Origin: an uncultured Acidimicrobiales bacterium
GTDB lineage: Bacteria; Actinomycetota; Acidimicrobiia; Acidimicrobiales; SZUA-35
DNA: 50,571 bases
NCBI GenBank assembly: GCA_938021675.1
Contig: CALIFY010000028.1
Coordinates: 1 to 50,571, forward strand
Reading direction: 5' to 3'
Under the pieces are notes generated by a model. The model did no database searches and had not been told where the DNA came from. It saw only the letters and a list, made by a program, of their open reading frames with translations. This document shows, piece after piece, positions 3,857 through 49,986 of this stretch (positions are counted from its first letter, which is position 1; each line of letters opens with the position of its first letter). The position numbers were made by a program, and so were the translations under genes.

Positions 3857-5920
3857 GCCGAGATCTCTCACCGGCGTCACCTGTTCCGGTACCTCGACAA
3901 GCGTTGGTAGCGTCCCGTTTCGGTCACTCAGCTCGGTGACAGTACCTCGAAGGCGTTCGACGAGGATGCGTTCACCGTCAGCCAGGGATCGCAGTTCGCG
4001 GTGGTTGCGTTGGAGGGGGCCATCGCCGGAACCATCGGCTTCGTCGGCCACCAGCCTCCGGTTGACAACGACGGCGTCTGCGCTCCGATCCCGCCGTTCG
4101 AGGTTGCCGAGAATCCATTCCGCTTCTTGAAGCGATTCTTTCTTGGCTGCGGTCACCAGCACATAGGCGGTATCTGGACCGGAGAGAAGGGCATCGATGT
4201 CGGCTGCCCGCCTCCTGAATCCCTCGTCTAGGCCTTCGAAATCGGAGAAGAAGGCGATGACATCGTCCACCAACCCGGCGCCGACGAGCCGTGCCAGCAG
4301 CCTGATGACTAGCTGTGTGCCGGTGTTGATCGATCGCAGGAGTCGGTGACGAGGGGCCAACACCGATCGATACAGCCGGTGGTCGACGAAGCGTGTCAGC
4401 CGGCCGGGGCTATCGAGAAAGTCCATGACATGTCGAGACGGTGGAGTATCGACAATGATCCGATCGAAACGATCGTCGCCGGCGAGCTGGTGGAGCCGTT
4501 CGCTCGCCACGTACTCGCTGGTCCCCGACAACGAGGTGGTCAGGTTGCGAAACAACGGATTGTTCAGGATCCGTTCGGTCCGCTCAGGGCTGTCGGCCTC
4601 AGCCCGGACGATTCCCTCCAGCGTCGCCGCCGGATCGAGCATCGCGGCCCACAACTCCCCGGACCAGAGCCCCTCGGGCGGTTCGACGAGGGTCGCTTCG
4701 TTCATCAGCTCGCCGTGGCGGCCGAGAGCGTCCGCCAACCGTCGGGCGGGGTCGATGGTCAGAACCACCACCCGCTCGCCGCCGTGAGCCAACGCCACCG
4801 CGAGAGCGGCCGACATGGTCGTCTTCCCCACGCCGCCGGACCCGAGACACAGCACGATCCGAGAGTCACCGATCGTGTTCACCAGCGGTCGATGTGCCTC
4901 GTCGTCGGCCAACGGCCGAGCCTTGCTGACCGGGATCGGCTTCGCTGGGGTATCGCTGGCCGCAACCATCTGTGGCGGCACCTGGGCCAACACAGCTGTG
5001 GCCAACGTCTCAACCTCGGGCAGGCCGAGATCGCTTCGAAACAAAAACGGAAGCGTGAACTGGGGCAGCGGCAGCTCGCCCGCCAATCGATCGATTTCCG
5101 ATCGTTGGTTCGCCATCCGGGCCAACCGCAATTCCGCCATCGGTACCAGCCGATTATCCTCTCCGTCGGCCGCGGCGCCCGCTCGGTCGACCGCATCGGC
5201 CAGACCCTCGACCTCGGACCACAAGCCGTTGATCACGACCGGGGCCAGTTTGATCCCCACCTCCTCCTCCAGGCTGTAGGCGGTCTCCACCGCCTCGGTA
5301 ACCGCCGTCTCCTCAGGGAGCGTCACCAGCATCACCTGGCACCGTCGATCGTCGGCGAACATCTCAAGCACCAGATCGGCCTGCTGCCGTATCGGTCCAG
5401 ACGTCGTCGAAGCGGAAAGGCCAGCCGCCGCGGTCAGGAACGTTAGGGCGTGACCGGCCGCCGGCGCATCGACGACGATCAGATCGGCGTCGCCGGATTG
5501 CTCGAGTTGGCGGATCTTACCCAAAGCCAACAAATCTCGGATGCCGGGGGCTGCGGTGGCGACAACATCGATGGCACCCGCCGTGGTGAGGCGAGAGGTG
5601 ATCGGTCCGATCCCTGCCCTATCGAGGTAGTCGGTCAGCGCGCTGTCCGGCTCGATTTGCCTGGCCCGCAGCCGTCCGCCGCCCGGTCCGACCTCAACCG
5701 GAATCTCCACTTCGTCGTAGCCGAGCGCCCCCATTCCGACCAGCGCACCCAGATTGCTGTAGCCCTCCAACTCGACGAGAAGAGTGTCACATCCGGCCTG
5801 AGCCGCCGCGACGCCGATCGTTGCCCCTACGGTGGTCTTTCCCACCCCGCCCTTGCCGGCCACGATGAGGACATTGGATGCGGCGAAGAATTCGGCAGCG
5901 GAGCCTGCGACAGCGGACAC
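3827..5920 (-). CDS. fused double ArsA/GET3-like ATPase
   Basis: 697 residues containing two complete deviant-Walker ATPase domains: GKGGVGKT at residues 22-29 and GSGGVGKT near residue 360. Each is followed by switch-type DAPAAGHALT or DTPPSRHVMDF segments typical of the ArsA/GET3 anion-transporting ATPase family. In mycobacteria two separate adjacent genes (Rv3679-Rv3680 type) encode such proteins beside a whiB gene; here they form one chain and a whiB gene lies 1.6 kb away. ArsA of Gram-negatives is also a tandem fusion, but no arsB, arsR or other arsenic gene is seen, so a GET3-like or envelope role is as likely. GTG 5920 has TAGTCT 8 bases upstream. The start overlaps the divergent NfeD-like gene. 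Confidence 0.85.
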   Translation of the reverse strand: MSAVAGSAAEFFAASNVLIVAGKGGVGKTTVGATIGVAAAQAGCDTLLVELEGYSNLGALVGMGALGYDEVEIPVEVGPGGGRLRARQIEPDSALTDYLDRAGIGPITSRLTTAGAIDVVATAAPGIRDLLALGKIRQLEQSGDADLIVVDAPAAGHALTFLTAAAGLSASTTSGPIRQQADLVLEMFADDRRCQVMLVTLPEETAVTEAVETAYSLEEEVGIKLAPVVINGLWSEVEGLADAVDRAGAAADGEDNRLVPMAELRLARMANQRSEIDRLAGELPLPQFTLPFLFRSDLGLPEVETLATAVLAQVPPQMVAASDTPAKPIPVSKARPLADDEAHRPLVNTIGDSRIVLCLGSGGVGKTTMSAALAVALAHGGERVVVLTIDPARRLADALGRHGELMNEATLVEPPEGLWSGELWAAMLDPAATLEGIVRAEADSPERTERILNNPLFRNLTTSLSGTSEYVASERLHQLAGDDRFDRIIVDTPPSRHVMDFLDSPGRLTRFVDHRLYRSVLAPRHRLLRSINTGTQLVIRLLARLVGAGLVDDVIAFFSDFEGLDEGFRRRAADIDALLSGPDTAYVLVTAAKKESLQEAEWILGNLERRDRSADAVVVNRRLVADEADGSGDGPLQRNHRELRSLADGERILVERLRGTVTELSDRNGTLPTLVEVPEQVTPVRDLGDLARLSQLL

Positions 5921-7296
5921 TGCTTAGGAGACTACTGGCAGCGGTGCTCGTCACCGGCGCCTTATTGGCCCTCAATGGGTTCAGCGCGCCCGGAGCCGGG
6001 GCCACAGCCGTCGGCACAGAGGCCGAAACCGGACCGGAATCGCCCGCTGGAGGCGACGACGCCGACCTTCCACCGTGCCCGGCCGAACCCGACGAGCTTC
6101 CGGCCTCAAATTCTGGAGTTCGGATCGTGAAGGTGGCAGGCCTGATCGATCCGGTGGTGGCCGACCACGTCCTCAATCAGCTCGACCTTGCCGAAGCCGA
6201 CCCGAACGCCATCGCCGTGATTCTGTGGATGAACAGCAACGGCTCGGTGCTCGACGACGATGTTTACCTCGACCTGGCGGGCCGTCTCCGCGACTCCCCA
6301 TTGCAAATCGGGCTCTGGGTTGGTCAAGCCGGCTCGACCGCTCGTGGCGGTGCCGCCGAGTTGGCCACCGTGGCCGACCTGGTCGGCGTGACACCAAACT
6401 CGACTATCGGTGAAATCGGCGATCGACGGCTCCCCCCGGAGTGGGGTGACCCGTTCGCGACAGCTCCGGCCGGGATCGAGACCGGCACCCTGACCGCCGA
6501 CGAGGCCGTCCAAGCCGGCGTCTCGGTCGGCCCCCTCCAGAACACCGTCCCAATCGGATCGTTCGCCGCCGGTTTGGAGGGATTCGAAGTCTTCAGGTGC
6601 CTGAACGACGACGGATTATTGCAAACCCTCCCGAAGAGCCAGGCCATCATCTCCGGCCTTCCGCTGACCTCACAGCTTTTCCATACCGTCGGCAGTCCCG
6701 AGGTGGCATATCTTTTCTTCGTCCTCGGCCTTAGCTTGCTCGTATTCGAACTGTTCACCGCCGGAGTCGGCGTGGCAGGGGTGATTGGAGCTGGCTTTCT
6801 CACCCTCGGATCGTTCGGCCTCGCCGTGCTCCCGACACGCCAATGGGCCATCGGATTGCTGCTGGCCTCGCTGATCTTTCTCGCCGTCGATATTCAGACG
6901 AACGTGCCGCGCCTCTACACCGTGCTTGGGCTGGTGTGTTTCGTGATCGGCACTTGGTTCCTGTACGACGGCGTATCGATGTCGCTGGTCACGCTCGTGG
7001 CCGGCGTCGTCGGGGCGATCCTCTACGCCTACACCGGCATGCCTTCCATGGTTCGAACACGTTTCTCAACTCCGACCATCGGTCGGAGATGGATGATCGG
7101 GGAGATGGGTGAAGCGATCAGCGACGTCGACCCAGAAGGCACGGTCAAGATCCGCGACGCCTCATGGCGAGCCATCACCAATCGAGCCACCCCCGTCCGC
7201 CAAGGAGATCAGGTCCGCGTGGTTGGTATCGATCGCCTCGTGCTCGAAATCGAGCCAGAAGAGGGCGGCGCCAAGGATTATCGCGAACGTAGCTGA
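5878..7296 (+). CDS. NfeD-like membrane protein with ClpP-like domain lacking catalytic Ser
   Basis: 472 residues. An Arg-rich start and hydrophobic stretch ending AGA-T form a signal peptide. Residues about 80-200 follow the ClpP/SppA-like fold of long NfeD proteins (VILWMNSNGSVLDDD), but the usual ASAG-type active-site Ser is replaced by ARGGAAEL, so proteolysis is doubtful. Four to five membrane helices follow (about 285-400), then the C-terminal OB-fold typical of NfeD (GEMGEAISDVDPEGTV onward). Long NfeD proteins work with stomatin-like proteins in membrane quality control; no stomatin gene is next to it. The ATG at 5878 overlaps the divergent ATPase start by 43 bases; GTG 5944, 13 bases after AGGAG, is an alternative that would shorten the signal peptide. 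Confidence 0.8.
   Translation: MRRRIRQRSLRQRTLLRRLLAAVLVTGALLALNGFSAPGAGATAVGTEAETGPESPAGGDDADLPPCPAEPDELPASNSGVRIVKVAGLIDPVVADHVLNQLDLAEADPNAIAVILWMNSNGSVLDDDVYLDLAGRLRDSPLQIGLWVGQAGSTARGGAAELATVADLVGVTPNSTIGEIGDRRLPPEWGDPFATAPAGIETGTLTADEAVQAGVSVGPLQNTVPIGSFAAGLEGFEVFRCLNDDGLLQTLPKSQAIISGLPLTSQLFHTVGSPEVAYLFFVLGLSLLVFELFTAGVGVAGVIGAGFLTLGSFGLAVLPTRQWAIGLLLASLIFLAVDIQTNVPRLYTVLGLVCFVIGTWFLYDGVSMSLVTLVAGVVGAILYAYTGMPSMVRTRFSTPTIGRRWMIGEMGEAISDVDPEGTVKIRDASWRAITNRATPVRQGDQVRVVGIDRLVLEIEPEEGGAKDYRERS
5929..5934 (-). promoter_or_regulatory. -10 box of the double ATPase gene
   Basis: TAGTCT on the minus strand, 8 bases before GTG 5920. It lies inside the 5' end of the divergent NfeD-like reading frame as annotated. 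Confidence 0.5.
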
Positions 7297-9573: not shown

Positions 9574-10869
9574 TCACGACTCGGCGCCGATCGAAGCGAT
9601 CGCCTCGGTCAAACCGTTGGCCACCTCGTCATCATCGGCAGGGTCGATCGTTCGCAGATCGACGACCGTCGAGCCATCGTCGATCCTGGCGATGATCGGC
9701 CGGTGGCGATCGCGCAACGGCCCTCCGATCTCGCCGGCAACCCGAAGCCCGACGCTCGGGAACGTCACCGTGGGCAACGTACCGCCGCCGGGGACGGCCT
9801 CGGTCGGTGTCACCTCGACCGACGCCGAGCCGACCGTTGCCGCGATGGCCCGAGCCCGAGTGTCGAGTTCGGCGACCGGGGTCGACACCATCGCCCAAAA
9901 CGGAATGTCCTCGCCGCGACGGTCGAGATAGGTGAGGGTCACCTGCTGCAATGCACCAAGAACCAGATCGCCGGGACGGACCGCTCGGGCCAACGGGTGG
10001 GACGCACACGTCTCGACCAGCTGGCGGGAACCGGCGATGATCCCGGCTTGCGGTCCGCCGAACAATTTGTCGCCGCTGAACAACACAAGCGCGGCGCCCG
10101 CCTTCACCGTTTGGCGAACCGCCGGCTCGGCCGCCAGCCATGGCGGGGGCGGTCCGCTAAGCCACGGACAGGTGGCGTCCAACAATCCAGAGCCGATGTC
10201 GGCGACCACCGGCACGCCGAGATCGGACAGGTCGCCGATATCGGCGTCTTCGGTGAACCCGACAATTTTGTAGTTCGATTGATGCACCTTGAGGATCATC
10301 GCCAGATCGTCTTCGGCGACCGCTCGGCGGTAGTCATCGACCCTGGAACGATTGGTGGTACCGACCTCGACCAACCTGGCCCCCGACTGACGCATCACGT
10401 CCGGGATGCGGAATCCGCCGCCGATCTCGACCATCTCGCCTCTGCTGACCGCCACCCCCCGACCGGCGCCGAGCGCGGCCAAGGTCAACAGCACCGCCGA
10501 AGCACAGTTGTTGACCACCATCGCCGCCTCAGCCCCACAAGCGGTTGCGAGAAGATCCCCGACAGCCCGCTGCCTGCTGCCTCGCTGACCCGACTCAAGA
10601 CTCAACTCGAGGTTCGAATAGCTGGCGGCGCTTTCGAACCCGAGCGGCGCTCGCCCGAGGTTGGTGTGAAGTAGCACGCCGGTTCCGTTGATGACCGGAC
10701 GCAGAAGTCGCCTACTCCGACGCCGAGCCAGCTCCGCCGCCCCCTCGACGCGATCTGCGGCGATCGCGTCCCGGGCCACTTCGACCAGTAACGGATGGGG
10801 AAGATCGTCATGGATCGAGGATTCAGCGAGCGAACGAGCCAATTGATCGACGGATGGGGGGCGAACCAC
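9574..10869 (-). CDS. selA: L-seryl-tRNA(Sec) selenium transferase SelA
   Basis: 431 residues, a PLP-dependent enzyme that turns seryl-tRNA(Sec) into selenocysteyl-tRNA(Sec) using selenophosphate. The PLP lysine is Lys268 in SGDKLFGGPQAG; NNCASAVLL (120-128) and KVHQSNYKIVGFTED are also typical. The GTG start has TAGTGT 6 bases upstream and no ribosome site, indicating a leaderless transcript that would carry selA and selB. The selenophosphate synthetase gene selD is not in the window. Confidence 0.95.
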   Translation of the reverse strand: MVRPPSVDQLARSLAESSIHDDLPHPLLVEVARDAIAADRVEGAAELARRRSRRLLRPVINGTGVLLHTNLGRAPLGFESAASYSNLELSLESGQRGSRQRAVGDLLATACGAEAAMVVNNCASAVLLTLAALGAGRGVAVSRGEMVEIGGGFRIPDVMRQSGARLVEVGTTNRSRVDDYRRAVAEDDLAMILKVHQSNYKIVGFTEDADIGDLSDLGVPVVADIGSGLLDATCPWLSGPPPPWLAAEPAVRQTVKAGAALVLFSGDKLFGGPQAGIIAGSRQLVETCASHPLARAVRPGDLVLGALQQVTLTYLDRRGEDIPFWAMVSTPVAELDTRARAIAATVGSASVEVTPTEAVPGGGTLPTVTFPSVGLRVAGEIGGPLRDRHRPIIARIDDGSTVVDLRTIDPADDDEVANGLTEAIASIGAES

Positions 10870-43730: not shown

Positions 43731-43832
43731 TCGGGTAGAAGACGTCAACACCGGCCGCTACGTCCGAGCCTTCGGACCCGGCAGCGAACCGAGCCGAGTT
43801 CTACCTCGACAAGTCGGTGTTGCGGGGCTTTG

Positions 43833-43926
43833 GCGGAGGTGGACGGGAATCGAACCCGCCAACGATGGATCGCATCGTTCACCCGCTTTGAAGGCGGGGG
43901 AGCCCACCAGGTACTCAGACACCTCC
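43833..43926 (-). tRNA. selC: tRNA-Sec (anticodon UCA)
   Basis: The minus strand folds as a selenocysteine tRNA of 94 bases including an encoded CCA. Acceptor GGAGGTG/CACCTCC, discriminator G, anticodon stem CCCGC/GCGGG with loop CTTCAAA (anticodon TCA), a long variable arm AACGATG/CATCGTT, and T-arm with GTTCGATT. The long variable arm and UCA anticodon are diagnostic. It completes the SelA/SelB set at 7.8-10.9 kb and is the target of an integrated element. Confidence 0.95.
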
Positions 43927-43929
43927 ACC
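43906..43929. repeat. att-like repeat, copy in selC
   Basis: ACCAGGTACT, six bases, then CCTCCACC. The same 10+8 bases with the same spacing recur at 46032-46055; only the central six bases differ. It covers the 5' end and D-arm of selC. Confidence 0.6.
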
Positions 43930-43969
43930 AGGGACTTTACCCCGCCCGACCAGAGGTGAAGTGCTAAGT

Positions 43970-43987
43970 GGTACCCATTCTGGTACC
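43970..43987. repeat. paired GGTACC sites
   Basis: GGTACC at 43970-43975 and 43982-43987, six bases apart, next to selC. The core GGTAC also occurs in the att-like repeats; these may be recombinase arm sites. Confidence 0.35.
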
Positions 43988-44313
43988 CCTAGGATTCCTC
44001 CAGACCAGGTTGGGCTCGACGGATCAGGCCTGCTTCGGACCCGGGGGCGGACGACTACACCGACGAAGGTCCGAGGTAGTCTCCCGGCTTGTTGCCCACA
44101 AACACCGAAGTTGAGCCCGTTACGGTGGTCTGATGGTTTAGAGATCAATGGAAGAAAACCACGTAGTTGCGGATGGCTGCCACCGTGGGCCAAGCATCGC
44201 GACAGAAACCACCCCCTCCAACGTACTCGACGACAACGTGTGGGCCGTCAATAACTGCTCGCCCAAAGGAAGACTTGTCGGCATTGGTCCCCTGGGTCCT
44301 ATGGTTCGTGGGC

Positions 44314-44319
44314 TACATT
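44314..44319 (+). promoter_or_regulatory. -10 box of the secreted repeat protein
   Basis: TACATT, 8 bases before ATG 44328. Confidence 0.5.
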
Positions 44320-44327
44320 TTCTGCAT

Positions 44328-45899
44328 ATGAGAAAAATGTTCACTCTGTCTTGGGCATGCTTCATGTCGCTCGTATCTCTATTCATTTTGCTTCTTGTTG
44401 GACCTGCTGCGGCATCGGTAGCTAATCCAATAGGAAACTATGACACCATTCGCTCTAACAGTGATGGGTCGGTTCAGGTTCGAGGTTGGGCCTTCGACTG
44501 GTCTGATCTGACGCGTAATGTGCAGATTCACGCCTATGTCGGCGGTCAGGCTGGTCAGGCGGGGTCGCGTGGCTACAATCTTGGCGAAGCAGCTTTACGT
44601 CGGTCTGACGTTGGTGATCGATATCCGACTGCCGGGGACTACCGAGGTTTCAATAAGACGTTCATGCCACGGGAATCGGGAAACAAGCAGGTCTGTTTGT
44701 ATGCAATAAACATCGGGCAAGGGGCCCACAAGTTCTTAGGTTGCAAGACGACCAATATTCAAGCTCCTAATCCTGTGGCTCGATTTGAGCAGGTCTCCTC
44801 AGATGCAACAGGGTACGTGCAGGTAAAAGGATGGGCCTTTGATAAGTCTGAACTCGACGACCACGTTCGCGTTCATGCATACCTGGGTGGCCGAGCCGGC
44901 GCTCCGGGGGTTAAGGGCTTCAATCTTGGCGAGGCAAACCTATATCGGCCGGACGTGAATAAGTACTACGGGACCGGAGTGAACAGAGGTTTTGGCTTCA
45001 GATTCATGCCAGACCGCTTTGGGTCACAGGAAGTCTGCCTATACGCAATAAATATTGGGAAGGGCTCGAACAAGTTTCTGGGCTGCAAGATCGTTGAAAT
45101 CTCCGAACCAGTTGGTATTGGTGTAGAACTCAGGCACTTGAGTACCGCTCCCAACGGTGGCGGTGGCGGTGGCGGTGGCGGTGGCGGTGGCGCTGGCGGT
45201 GGCACAATTGAGTGTCAATCGATTGTTGCTAGATTCACAATCGAGGCTTCAGAGAACTCGCCTACTCCTCCGACTCAGGTTTCCTTCTTTGTCCCTGAAG
45301 GCGCTAATGTCAAGGGCATTGTTGGGTGGGACTACAATGGGCCGGAGCCAGGAAGAACCTCCGCAGTTAGGTTCGAGGCTCATTCCGTTGATACAGATAC
45401 GGGAGATACTGGCTCGGATAGTTCGATGGTCGTGTGGCAGCCGGACCATAAGAGTCAACGGATTTCCCTTCCTAGCCGAGTGGCTCCATCGGGCAATGTA
45501 AGTTTGAGCGTGAGTGCCGGATCAAAGGTCTTTTATGTCCCAGCAGACGCCGATGCTCGGGTGACGGGGTACGTGGAGCTATACCTTGAGAAGCCTGGCG
45601 GTGAGCCGTTCTGCGCCGAAGATTGTGTGGCCTCTGGAGGGGATCTCTACTTCAAACAATCGATGGTCATTGGTGGTGCATCTTACGAAGGATGTTATTC
45701 TCGAGAGGATGGGGGATCTTGCGACCATGAGTTGGTCGAAAAGATTAAGCGAGATTCCAGTGCCGTAGATCCAATAATGAACTTTTCGATCTACGCAAGC
45801 GGTAAAATCGCCACTACTTTTAACCCATTCGGCCCGGCTATCGCGGAAATTCCAGATTGGGCTTCAGGGAAGCTCTGCGAGGCCTCGTATCTCCTTTAG
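44328..45899 (+). CDS. secreted protein with two GWAFD-type repeats and Gly-rich hinge
   Basis: 523 residues. A signal peptide ends at PAAASV. Two copies of an 85-residue beta unit follow, each with VQVRGWAFDWSDL or VQVKGWAFDKSEL, then IHAYVGG/VHAYLGG, NLGEA, and a closing VCLYAINIG with a C-terminal LGCK; the paired cysteines suggest one disulfide per unit. A run of twelve glycines plus AGGG leads to a C-terminal domain with further cysteines (CAEDC, EGCYSREDGGSCDHE). The repeat type is common in secreted actinobacterial proteins. GC is well below that of neighbours. ATG 44328 is chosen because the signal peptide starts there and TACATT is upstream; the longer frame from 44148 lacks support. 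Confidence 0.75.
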   Translation: MRKMFTLSWACFMSLVSLFILLLVGPAAASVANPIGNYDTIRSNSDGSVQVRGWAFDWSDLTRNVQIHAYVGGQAGQAGSRGYNLGEAALRRSDVGDRYPTAGDYRGFNKTFMPRESGNKQVCLYAINIGQGAHKFLGCKTTNIQAPNPVARFEQVSSDATGYVQVKGWAFDKSELDDHVRVHAYLGGRAGAPGVKGFNLGEANLYRPDVNKYYGTGVNRGFGFRFMPDRFGSQEVCLYAINIGKGSNKFLGCKIVEISEPVGIGVELRHLSTAPNGGGGGGGGGGGGAGGGTIECQSIVARFTIEASENSPTPPTQVSFFVPEGANVKGIVGWDYNGPEPGRTSAVRFEAHSVDTDTGDTGSDSSMVVWQPDHKSQRISLPSRVAPSGNVSLSVSAGSKVFYVPADADARVTGYVELYLEKPGGEPFCAEDCVASGGDLYFKQSMVIGGASYEGCYSREDGGSCDHELVEKIKRDSSAVDPIMNFSIYASGKIATTFNPFGPAIAEIPDWASGKLCEASYLL

Positions 45900-45918
45900 T
45901 CACTGCATAGCTATTTGC

Positions 45919-45957
45919 AAGGGATCCCATTCCTCTGTTACTCGAGTGGGATCCCTT
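45919..45957 (+). terminator. stem-loop after the secreted repeat gene
   Basis: AAGGGATCCCATTC pairs with GAGTGGGATCCCTT (14 pairs, one wobble) around 11 bases, 19 bases past the stop. No T-run follows. Confidence 0.65.
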
Positions 45958-46028
45958 GTCGCGTTCCCTGTCGACGTGGTTTACGCCGCCAAAATTTCGT
46001 TATTTCCAATCTAGGTGTTCCAGCTTTG

Positions 46029-46055
46029 AGTACCAGGTACTATAAAGCCTCCACC
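46029..46055. repeat. att-like site beside the integrase gene
   Basis: The second copy of the selC repeat (46032-46055), 22 bases from the integrase stop. Its left part is a perfect inverted repeat AGTACC-A-GGTACT (46029-46041). Probably an attachment site marking the edge of the int-xis-rep element. Confidence 0.6.
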
Positions 46056-46077
46056 CCGTCCCGATTCGGCTGAAATA

Positions 46078-47250
46078 CTAGGTGGCATCCCACTTGGCAC
46101 CCGGTTGCTCGTCTTCCTGACCGTCGTCGTCTTCATGTTCGACTGGAGTTAGATCGGCGACTCTTCGGAACTTGTGGCGATACACACGACTGATCATCGC
46201 CTCCGACGTTCCTGCCCAATCAGCGATCTCCCAAGCTGAACGACCGGCGTCCGCTTGATGACTGATCGCCGTGTGTCGAAGCTCGTATGGGGTGATCGGC
46301 GGGTCAACTTTAGTCTTCTTGCACAATGATCGGATTGACCTGGCGAGACTATGTCTGTCGATGGCGGTCCCGACCGAGGTTGACGCAACGAGATCGTATT
46401 CGGTCCACGCTACCCCAGCCTTGGATCGCATCTTGTCTTGATCTTCCCGCCATTCCTTGAGTGTGCTGACGGTCGTTCGGTCCAATCGAATGATGCGTGC
46501 AGCGTTGTAGGCGCGCTTGACCGAGGTGCGATTGTTACCACGATCCTGTTGACCCCTAACATGCAGCTCATAGGCATCGAGATCGAGGTCGGCCCATCGC
46601 AGCGCCCTAGCTTCGGCTGGTCGGAGACCGTTTCGGCCGCAAAGGTCGACGATGATCCGGCGAGCGTGACGTGCGGCCTCAAGCATCGAGGCCAATTCGT
46701 TGGGCTCCAATGCTCGCCGTTCGGTCTCGTCTTGTCTGGCAGCCGGTAGGACCGACAGGTCAGCTACGTTGGCACTGAGTCGTCCGACTCTGACCTCGTT
46801 GGCCAGCACACGAATCAAGGTGCGACGCACCCTGGTCAGTCGACCTCGGCTCATCGGCTGGCCGCCGTTGCGTCCTTCTTTGCGTTTTTCGAAGAGCCGA
46901 TCACAGTCGAGTACCGTGAGATCGATCAGGCGGAAGCCGCCCAACTCTTTGCTGATGACGCCAGCAGCCCACTCGATGTCTTCGAAGGCTCCCGACGTCT
47001 TGGTGTCTCGACGGCGGAGTTCAAGGTAAGTCTCGACTGCATCGCAGACAAGGCGGCGATGGTCGGAATTGCCGCCCGTCGTATGCAGCTCGTCTTGCAT
47101 CTGGCGAAGGAGCTTCAGCGCCTCGACACGTGTCTTCGCCCGAAGCTTCTTGCGACGACGTTGCCCATTGACGCGAGGGAGCTCTATTCGAGCAATCCAG
47201 CCCGAACCATCAGGTGAACGACTAATCGACCCTTCACCTTTCCCCCTCAT
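46078..47250 (-). CDS. int: tyrosine site-specific integrase
   Basis: 390 residues. An N-terminal arm-binding domain (GSISRSPDGSGWIARIELP), a SAM-like core-binding domain (about 65-160), and a catalytic domain with Arg in GLRPAEARALRW, box II in PYELRHTAIS and the nucleophile Tyr in SRVYRHK. The usual LGH His is replaced by WAGTS, seen in many actinobacterial integrases. It inserts or excises the element at selC. Its start overlaps the xis stop by one base (TGATG), so the two are translated together. Confidence 0.93.
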   Translation of the reverse strand: MRGKGEGSISRSPDGSGWIARIELPRVNGQRRRKKLRAKTRVEALKLLRQMQDELHTTGGNSDHRRLVCDAVETYLELRRRDTKTSGAFEDIEWAAGVISKELGGFRLIDLTVLDCDRLFEKRKEGRNGGQPMSRGRLTRVRRTLIRVLANEVRVGRLSANVADLSVLPAARQDETERRALEPNELASMLEAARHARRIIVDLCGRNGLRPAEARALRWADLDLDAYELHVRGQQDRGNNRTSVKRAYNAARIIRLDRTTVSTLKEWREDQDKMRSKAGVAWTEYDLVASTSVGTAIDRHSLARSIRSLCKKTKVDPPITPYELRHTAISHQADAGRSAWEIADWAGTSEAMISRVYRHKFRRVADLTPVEHEDDDGQEDEQPGAKWDAT

Positions 47251-47426
47251 CAGGCTGCCTCGCGTAGTTCGTTGACGAAGACTTCGAGATCGACGTGAGC
47301 GATTAGCCGACGCCTGCCGATCTTGATCGAAGGCAAGTCACCGACACGGATTAGTTCCTTGGCAGTCGTCATTCCGATACCAAGGACTTCCGCCACTTCT
47401 TCGACACTGTAGGTAAGTCGTTGCAT
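47250..47426 (-). CDS. xis: excisionase / helix-turn-helix DNA-binding protein
   Basis: 58 residues from ATG 47426, which has AAGGAG 8 bases upstream (a longer frame to 47471 lacks one). YSVEEVAEVLGIGMTTAKEL is a MerR/HTH_17-type helix-turn-helix, followed by LPSIKIGRRRLIAHVDLEVF. Such proteins sit next to integrases in actinobacterial elements and direct excision. Confidence 0.88.
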   Translation of the reverse strand: MQRLTYSVEEVAEVLGIGMTTAKELIRVGDLPSIKIGRRRLIAHVDLEVFVNELREAA

Positions 47427-48097: not shown

Positions 48098-48502
48098 TTA
48101 GGCGGTTGTTGTGGCCGCTGTTTTTGTTGTTGTTGTTTTTGCTGTTGTTTTGGATGTTGTGCCGTCGGCGGGTGTGAATGTGTCGGCGTACCAGCGGGCG
48201 GTTATGTTTTTCTCTGTTTTTCGTGAGTACATTTGCACCCTCAGGTTTGGCATGAGCACCAGCTTTTTGAACCCGGCTTCGGGTTTGTCGGGTGTAGCGA
48301 CGTGGACTTCGAGAACTTGTTCTTCTCGGTTCCGTTCGTCTGATGCTGTGACCCGGACCATCCACAGCGGGTAGCCGGTGTTTTTGTCTCTTTCTTGGGT
48401 TCGGTCGTCTCCGAATACGCCTTGTTCGAATTTGTAGACTGGTTCTGATTCTTGGAAGAACAGGTCGTACGCGGTTTCGCTGATTACTAGATTTTCAAAC
48501 AT
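48098..48502 (-). CDS. element protein with Thr/Lys/Ala-rich tail
   Basis: 134 residues. The first 110 look folded (VISETAYDLFFQESEPVYKF, GYPLWMVRVTASD, VLMPNLRVQMYSRKTEKN) and resemble small plasmid-borne actinobacterial proteins; the last 25 are a low-complexity Thr/Lys/Ala run encoded by TTG/TTT-rich DNA. It overlaps the rep gene by 16 bases. A single-strand DNA or replication role is only a guess. Confidence 0.65.
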   Translation of the reverse strand: MFENLVISETAYDLFFQESEPVYKFEQGVFGDDRTQERDKNTGYPLWMVRVTASDERNREEQVLEVHVATPDKPEAGFKKLVLMPNLRVQMYSRKTEKNITARWYADTFTPADGTTSKTTAKTTTTKTAATTTA

Positions 48503-49986
48503 GTGTTATTGGTTCCTTTGATTGGTGCGGGAAATGTTCCCGCAGTTGGTTGTTGTTCGCCGGGGCCGGCCAGTCTTGGCGGGTCTCCCGGAGATCTTTG
48601 CTCGACCGTCACGGTGAGTCCGTGGTGTTCAAGGACACCGATCGCTGTGTCGAGACCGTCTACGCCGATATCGAGAGCGGCCAGAAACCTGGCCCGTAGC
48701 CCGACACGGGTGATCACTATCTGGCGCCACAGGGATTTGCTGATGGTGCAGACCCGGCCGATGGTTTCGTCGGCTTCGGACGCGAGCTCTTCGTCGGTTT
48801 TTTCTTTGGCTAGCCCGAGTTCTTGACGTAAGCCTTTGGACCAGGACCACATTTGCCGGTTATGGGATCCTTTGACCCAGTCACGAAACAGATCGATCGA
48901 TTCTTTGTCACCGGTCTCAACCGCGTCATATGCGAGAGCGAACGGATGCCGGCTGGTCCTTGTGCGGCCTTCTTTGCCGTCGGCCATCGCGACCTCGTAC
49001 CCGGCCTTGGTGCAGTACGTTCCGACCCCTTCGGCGTCGTCGGTTTTGACGGGTCGGAGATCGACTCCGATACTGGATTTGACGTCTCGGTCGTATTTGG
49101 ATTTCATGCGATGCACCCACAGCTCGTGGAACACGTGAGCGATGTTGTTGTACTCATCACGCCGATCGAACGGCCCCACGGTTCCGTCAACGAACAGGAG
49201 GATGTGTAGGTGCGGGTGCCAGCCGTTCCGGCCGTGCATCACCTCGGTGGAGCGAACGAAACCCATGCGGTGATGATCCCGAAGCCGCCGATACCTCGAA
49301 TGAGATGTCACGTAGGCCCAGCATTCCTGCACGGTGTCCCACACAACGTCCAACGGTTCGCCGTGACTGTGCTGCGTGGTCAACGTGAGCAGCAGGACCG
49401 ATCCGCCGTTGGCTTTGTGAACCGCTATTGCGGTGGCGAGTTCGGCGGCTCGTTTGGTGCGGATCTTGAACGAACAGATCGGGCACGCCCACACACTCCC
49501 GCATGTCTGCAAACCCGACGTGAACGCGTGACCCTGCGGTGATTTCTCAACCGCGACATCCGACAGGCCGGCGGTGACGTTCACGCCACACGCCCGAACC
49601 TTGTCCGCTTCGCCCATATCGCCGCACGTCTCGGCAATTAAGGCTCGTGCCCGGTCAGCGAGGAGCCGTTTCAACGACGGACCAAGACCAGCCAAACCCG
49701 TTTCGTTCGACCCGCTCGTTAAGTGGGTTTCGGTGTGTGCCGCAGAGTTGTTACCCATTACTACCAAGGGGCCGGCTGGCGCCGTGCCGTCGCTTCGCTC
49801 CGGCCTCGGCTCGCCGCCTCCTACCCTTACGGTCGTCGGCGTCGGCCTCGTCGGAACGATCGACCCCACCCGGCCATCGCCACCAGTAGCCGGGTACGAA
49901 CTATGACCAACCAAACCACCAACATCTCGTGTCGAGGATTCGGTGTTTGTGGTCTGGCCGTGTGAACGGTTGTCGTTGCTGGTCAT
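48487..49986 (-). CDS. rolling-circle replication initiator (RepSA-like)
   Basis: 499 residues. CGSVWACPICSFKIRTKRA is a zinc-binding CxxC region; motif 1 LLLTLTTQHSHGE, the HUH motif WHPHLHILLF, and the catalytic Tyr region TYCTKAGYEVA mark an HUH endonuclease of rolling-circle type. Similar proteins (RepSA of pSAM2) start replication of actinobacterial integrative elements, with xis and int downstream as here. The ATG at 49986 overlaps the stop of the upstream gene as ATGA, which supports that start although the first 80 residues look unstructured. Confidence 0.88.
   Translation of the reverse strand: MTSNDNRSHGQTTNTESSTRDVGGLVGHSSYPATGGDGRVGSIVPTRPTPTTVRVGGGEPRPERSDGTAPAGPLVVMGNNSAAHTETHLTSGSNETGLAGLGPSLKRLLADRARALIAETCGDMGEADKVRACGVNVTAGLSDVAVEKSPQGHAFTSGLQTCGSVWACPICSFKIRTKRAAELATAIAVHKANGGSVLLLTLTTQHSHGEPLDVVWDTVQECWAYVTSHSRYRRLRDHHRMGFVRSTEVMHGRNGWHPHLHILLFVDGTVGPFDRRDEYNNIAHVFHELWVHRMKSKYDRDVKSSIGVDLRPVKTDDAEGVGTYCTKAGYEVAMADGKEGRTRTSRHPFALAYDAVETGDKESIDLFRDWVKGSHNRQMWSWSKGLRQELGLAKEKTDEELASEADETIGRVCTISKSLWRQIVITRVGLRARFLAALDIGVDGLDTAIGVLEHHGLTVTVEQRSPGDPPRLAGPGEQQPTAGTFPAPIKGTNNTCLKI

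Follow-up and report, generated by a model that had tools for sequence, protein, structure and literature searches.

The window analysed here is the entire 50,571-bp contig C28 of a draft genome (G000, 99 contigs) from an uncultured Acidimicrobiales bacterium. It carries the tRNA-Sec gene selC, which is intact by ARAGORN, and beyond the 5′ end of selC a low-GC cargo gene followed by genes for a tyrosine integrase, an xis-like protein and a replication initiator (int-xis-rep; Table 1). SelA is encoded on the same contig (9607-10752) and scored above its family cut-off in 11 of the 12 genus genomes searched, G000 counted. Since SelA is present in G000 and in most genus genomes, selC is probably in functional use.

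Table 1. Features of the selC locus in the window
Feature	Position	Strand	Basis
selC, tRNA-Sec(TCA), integration target; its 5′ half is the half carried by the element	43831..43926	-	ARAGORN
Attachment-end core, from anticodon loop (GCTTTGAAGG) to selC 5′ end; occurs as displaced copies in relatives	43885..43929	+	
-10 box TAAAGT, 7 nt ahead of the tRNA	43934..43939	-	
Tandem arm repeat TGGTACCCATTCTGGTACCC, putative integrase arm sites, selC-side element end	43969..43988	+	
Cargo gene, low GC, secreted-looking protein; start near 44328; two GWAFD repeats	44148..45899	+	
Degenerate inner end: GCTTTGA, a spacer 12 bases shorter than that of selC, and 19 of 24 selC 5′-half bases; no -10 box	46023..46055	+	
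Degenerate tandem arm repeat TGGCATCCCACTTGGCACCC, inner end; overlaps int 3′ codons	46083..46102	+	
Tyrosine integrase, 390 aa	46078..47250	-	PF00589 (3.2e-13)
xis-like small protein	47250..47426	-	HTH_17
Small protein, weakly like the SCO3933 family	48098..48502	-	16.7 bits; cut-off 80, far above
Replication initiator	48487..49986	-	PF01446 Rep_1 (1.4e-13)

A split motif in the 5′ part of selC recurs beside the integrase gene, as a sequence-only reading of the window had pointed out. The pattern is real and occurs exactly twice in the genome (43906-43929 and 46032-46055), but the two copies agree at 19 of 24 bases, one of them inside the N6 spacer, and not at the 18 counted before; the 22 bases separating the inner copy from the integrase stop (46078) are as described. 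With a 24-column matrix built from 69 selC copies of relatives, selC scored 38.8 bits, the inner copy 12.2 bits and the next site in the contig 4.3 bits. Ahead of the inner copy stands GCTTTGA, which is the motif of the anticodon loop in the selC core, and the spacing between this motif and ACCAGG is 14 bases at selC and 2 at the inner copy. The inner copy went unreported when all loci were searched with a gapped nhmmer profile of the whole site (E up to 5), which argues against easy detection and not against the site itself. Gapped local alignment over 115 bases gave it a score of 16, a small lead over the next place (14) and the maximum of 300 shuffles (13).

Elements of this integrase family possess a second signal, the tandem repeat TGRTAGCC-N4-TGRTAGCC with a period of about 12 bases, shortly after the tRNA edge. 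We regard these repeats as putative integrase arm (binding) sites, a label borrowed from lambda-type integrases. An arm matrix trained without the window was run over its roughly 101,000 positions and ranked the selC side first (43969, 21.6 bits) and the inner copy third (46083, 10.6 bits). Because an unrelated and distant position (1444, 14.6 bits) outranks the inner copy, the arms alone are not decisive; 10.6 bits was reached by 0.6% of 1310 random 150-base stretches. Among 126 distinct selC upstream regions, that of the window included, seven have arms of at least 15.7 bits next to selC (at +42/43 or +53), three of which had helped to train the matrix, and the next upstream region reached 13.6 bits and the best of the 1310 random controls 13.4. 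We then required a core and an arm no more than 60 nt apart, each at least as good as at the inner site, in a two-strand scan of 3.2 million positions (those in overlapping loci included; distinct places tallied by hand). The 27 resulting rows correspond to 15 distinct places: 13 selC-type ends elsewhere, the selC of the window and the inner site. Every place outside the window is a selC gene or a half-copy of one; several had trained the matrices, and the informative part of this result is that no unrelated place appeared. The joint test upholds the proposal that the inner copy is a second element end.

The relatives establish that selC is an integration hot spot, with elements on its 5′ side, and both points had been anticipated from the window. 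The core pattern was found in at least 118 stretches of public genomes, mostly from Acidimicrobiia, Acidimicrobiales or similar records, and 136 bases around selC matched in 45 of 61 genomes, G000 included. Empty sites are seen in seven family genomes (G012, G014, G016, G020, G021, G024 and G028), where the CpaE-like frame of a pilus operon lies 43-338 bp from selC; we take this operon to be of the Tad type from the look of its protein sequences rather than from a family search. It lies 4.8, 5.4 and 8.3 kb from selC in G035, G042 and G018, respectively; the comparison covered 32 hand-picked regions out of 158 selC upstream regions. G011 (three copies) and G008 have, farther along the contig that holds selC, partial selC copies running from the anticodon loop to the 5′ end; in G005 and G001 such copies sit on contigs other than that of selC. 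In the genus mate G011, selC lies at 164.6 kb and a CpaF-like gene at 221.2 kb, placing the operon 56.6 kb away; half-copies span the first 33 kb of this interval and mark that part alone as putatively mobile. The half-copy contig of G005 carries the operon at 54 kb. In G000, a CpaF-like gene is found at 25 kb on another contig (C29) and groups with the selC-linked ones (49-61% identity, versus 39-43% to other copies). C29 opens with a broken integrase piece (19-269, L230), which is probably a further element of the same array, and the G000 island is probably split across at least two contigs. A search for a conserved right flank on C29 with 21 proteins matched relatives' flanks only with the CpaF-like protein and its neighbour.

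Right-end arms precede the core by 114-125 bp in 13 of 19 half-copies (10 of 16 of the selC type and 3 of 3 of other tRNAs). The six without clear right-end arms are G011c, G008_4, G008_5, G005_4, L125 (7.2 bits, at the correct place) and the inner site of the window. These counts come from a scan of 22 rows from which L121, L182 and L163 were dropped, and an 11.3-bit match before G008_4 was excluded as the left arm of the adjacent copy. In a separate 19-row list of half-copies, L121, L182 and L152 are complete selC genes, L090 duplicates G011, L177 duplicates G001, and L112, L163, L180 and L186 lie only 4-34 bases from a contig end and may be either half-copies or truncated complete genes.

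Several selC half-copies in G008 and G005 are spaced by 0.2-1.9 kb, with small units between them (L036 11688-15610 in G008; L039 8267-12272 in G005). Four genes tested in these units belong to toxin-antitoxin-type families (DUF433, DUF5615 twice, and PemK). Some half-copies there have an enlarged D-arm (L036 12907-12960, 13974-14030 and 15555-15606 in G008; L039 11184-11224 and 12219-12272 in G005); two were folded and gave a longer hairpin, and such a copy, if an active end, would yield a tRNA-Sec with an odd D-arm. A locus binned as Granulosicoccaceae (L126) holds a 4.7-kb unit bounded by selC and a half-copy, in which no match to the integrases was detected; the left arms of the unit have exactly the sequence of the selC-side arms of the window. 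The same unit contains a gene couple, TcmP plus DUF5131 (5228-6961), resembling a radical SAM mobile pair in a unit with no recognised integrase. The Acidimicrobiia-type selC core of L126 (1-7558) and of L180, both in Granulosicoccaceae/Granulosicoccus bins, may reflect misbinning or transfer. On contig C99 of G001, 2.8 kb away from the intact selC, a copy of the selC 3′ part (L037 3514-3582, 89%) lies next to a worn 5′ part and may be a pseudo-selC or a displaced piece of opposite polarity. This copy, together with short 3′-part matches (24-30 bases) in a few other genomes, speaks against a strict 5′-only rule.

The selC anticodon loop is where crossover takes place, and the half of selC found on the element side is the 5′ one; the displaced 5′ halves of the relatives start at that loop. 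The carried half comes with a promoter signal, as TANNNT stands exactly 7 nt ahead of the tRNA in 78 of 125 distinct selC upstream regions, including all seven that bear arms; no -10 box was found at this fixed place of the inner end of the window. Each element would thus bring a selC 5′ half and a -10 box, and its insertion would regenerate selC and exchange its promoter.

Twelve of 39 family genomes, that of the window among them, encode integrases with 38-64% identity (E up to 1e-40). The matches of highest identity, both partial, are those of G002 (64%) and G004 (55%), which stop about 104 and 192 bp short of selC, the arms lying in the gap; this layout indicates that an element end beside int is the simple arrangement. 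Ten integrase loci on selC-free contigs (L195-L204; L056-L058, L060, L069 and L070 left out) were inspected for tRNA genes. In eight, int flanks a tRNA gene at its 3′ side (two Pro-TGG, three Ser-GGA, two Val-CAC and one Ser-GCT), one (L199) has a tRNA-Ala gene with a displaced 3′ half beside int, and one (L204) has no tRNA. The integrase of L199 (genome G017; 10-55 and 10707-10781) faces the displaced tRNA-Ala half and not the intact gene, another change of orientation. As related integrases sit 3′ of other tRNAs and their elements share the same type of arms, the polarity is flipped for selC. Displaced copies for Ala-TGC, Ser-GGA (in G008) and Ser-GCT also start at the anticodon loop; the Pro-TGG boundary was taken from diverged pieces on another contig, and for the remaining 3′-side elements the boundary was assigned by position and arms. 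A tree of 15 integrases groups the selC users with those of Pro, Val and Ser-GGA in a single supported set (98/96), the place of the Val users differing between two trees. A single origin of selC use was neither shown nor rejected (approximately unbiased test, p-AU 0.26).

The integrase would recombine within the tRNA-Sec anticodon loop, the tRNA lying in the opposite orientation to the targets of related integrases. The reversed Sec anticodon arm was compared with the forward arms of the 42 distinct non-Sec tRNA sequences of the genome, a ranking made with the targets already known. Over 25 bases, the best were Ser-GGA (16), Pro-TGG (16) and Ala-TGC (15), each the target of a related integrase, followed by 13; two other family targets ranked low (Val-CAC 12, Ser-GCT 10). 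Over 17 bases the order was Ser-GGA 13, Ala 13 and Pro 12, then 11, and the 13-base comparison did not favour the trio (Ser-GGA 11, Phe-GAA 9, Ala 9, Pro 8). The similarity is only suggestive because anticodon stems are near-palindromic and the forward Sec arm itself agrees with Gly-TCC at 17 of 25 bases. We tentatively propose, with doubt prevailing over confidence, that a clade whose elements normally carry tRNA 3′ halves moved to a reversed selC because the Sec anticodon arm, when read backwards, mimics those of the usual targets. Were this so, each insertion would replace the front half and promoter of the only tRNA-Sec gene found in the genome, the newest element would set selC expression, and selC would serve as a dock for small units including toxin-antitoxin genes. 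Wider searches gave the following: in IMG/VR the core pattern had no match and three integrase-peptide stretches were obtained, none confirmed; an integrase query of genome contigs gave 82 stretches, none confirmed; and PLSDB returned 24 records with distant integrases, of which the eight listed are all below 30% identity.

The gene between the two ends is lower in GC than the first 43.8 kb (53.1% versus 62.5%), and the protein start near 44328 looks like a signal peptide by eye, in keeping with the earlier description of a secreted-protein gene. No Pfam or NCBIfam family and no phage relative was found for it; a GGTGGC repeat (45156-45205) encodes a glycine run. Relatives commonly have 0.8-4.6 kb of cargo separating the arms from int. 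Among 12 cargo-bearing elements checked, the window alone has, next to int, a further set of core and arms; for the eight 3′-side elements only the arm half of this test applies, the core matrix being tRNA-Sec-specific. As for an integron cassette array, the integron-integrase models stayed far below their cut-offs, the repeats here are halves of tRNA genes, and no search was aimed at attC sites.

The two ends differ in preservation. The sequence-only reading had suggested an older insertion beside selC and a newer int element behind it. It is the selC-side end that is well preserved (arms of 21.6 bits, -10 box), and the end beside int that is worn (arms of 10.6 bits, 12 bases fewer, no -10 box). 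A fresh insertion into selC should also put the newest element next to selC, which counts against the age order proposed. Nor is the intervening 2 kb supported as an insertion of its own, since no right-end arms precede 46023. The region 46023-46102 most plausibly represents an end of the int-xis-rep element that has decayed. On balance, we favour a history in which selC holds an array of elements akin to actinomycete integrative and conjugative elements (AICEs), formed by tandem accretion and then deletion. This order of events explains why the cargo has a well-preserved left end but lacks a right one, and why the left end of the int element is worn. Most likely, a second element accreted at selC ahead of the int element, giving two tandem ends, the good one at selC (43885-43988) and the worn one (46023-46102) beside int-xis-rep. 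A later deletion would have taken the right end of the second element and any recombination genes, so that its remaining end and its cargo gene became joined to the int element. The resulting composite, bounded by selC on one side and by a right end past the contig edge on the other, may now be mobile as a whole.

Several observations weigh against this history. The inner end is seen in one genome only, which makes the history a single case. Five other half-copies also have no clear right-end arms, and their absence at 46023 may be due to decay. No trace of a second integrase was detected in 43930-46022 (best E 0.07), and no homologue of the cargo gene in the loci fetched, leaving its origin untraced. 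The matching right end of the int element, a displaced cognate fragment such as those present in G011, G008, G005, G001 and L126, was not found elsewhere in the draft genome, the contig breaking at 50571.

A less probable reading, to which we give perhaps half as much credence, is that two separate tandem elements lie here, in essence the view of the sequence-only reading: an integrase-less cargo element from selC to 46023 and int-xis-rep from 46023, each still bounded by its own att sites in the manner of cis-mobilizable elements (CIMEs), and in either order of arrival. The GCTTTGA motif at 46023 fits such a boundary, and units with no recognised integrase between selC half-copies do exist (the 4.7 kb of L126 and, for G008 and G005, stretches of roughly 0.2-1.9 kb, part of them with toxin-antitoxin type genes). 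Against it, no right-end arms were found within 250 bp before 46023 (best -0.1 bits), although such arms accompany 13 of 19 half-copies; the inner core is also 12 bases short and has no -10 box. Unlikely, in our judgement, is a single element with an ordinary cargo slot between arms and int, whose inner repeat arose by end duplication or gene conversion. Cargo in that slot is common, and 11 of 11 other elements do have no inner end, but a recent duplication would make the two arm sets alike, and TGGTACCCATTCTGGTACCC and TGGCATCCCACTTGGCACCC differ. Chance resemblance, which the silence of nhmmer and the small alignment lead would allow, is disfavoured by the joint test and very unlikely, as the core is second-best in the contig by a wide margin and the arms third-best, both in correct order and orientation beside int, and all further hits of that test across 3.2 million positions are selC-type ends.

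If the favoured history holds, the locus offers a testable case of promoter exchange at selC combined with element growth by accretion and deletion. It would also mean that an integrase family can flip the tRNA half that it carries, turning the element into a promoter donor of a selected tRNA gene. Among the titles listed in literature searches, none named the arrangement described here. Islands of E. coli at selC use the selC 3′ end; the same tRNA species is the hot spot in both, at its 3′ end there and in its 5′ half here. The ICESt1 lineage of integrative and conjugative elements (ICEs) is reported to have grown by tandem accretion and deletion, and to include CIMEs, att-flanked integrase-less units trimmed by deletion. 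Integrase-less units are alike in both; the cargo unit of the window (43930-46022) has a left end and no integrase found, but it differs from a CIME in its missing right arms, broken inner core and lack of a recognisable right end.

Islander islands resemble the present elements in a target regenerated by element-borne sequence, a displaced fragment at the far end and a class of anticodon-centred crossovers, and tandem arrays are counted there too (PMC4383910). As 159 of 3919 such islands carry the 5′ tDNA fragment (PMC4383910), the 5′-side polarity is rare and not new; the Islander passages drawn on here make no mention of Acidimicrobiia selC, a polarity flip within an integrase clade or a decayed inner end (PMC4383910). 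With AICEs the window shares int, the xis-like gene and Rep_1, and the selC element of G008 adds FtsK/SpoIIIE (L036 5127-5996, PF01580, 2.2e-11). FtsK/SpoIIIE was not among the window open reading frames scanned and no tra gene was seen on the contig, which ends just after rep. AICEs usually, though not strictly, enter the tRNA 3′ end, whereas the selC 5′ half is used here. In the parts of the 2011 AICE survey consulted, tandem AICEs are reported, and Fean6303, with two attL sites, excises in two forms (PMC3218068). The same parts record no AICE in the survey's Acidimicrobidae sample, even with 15 further Rep families (PMC3218068), and it is to this bacterial class that the AICE-like array at selC belongs.
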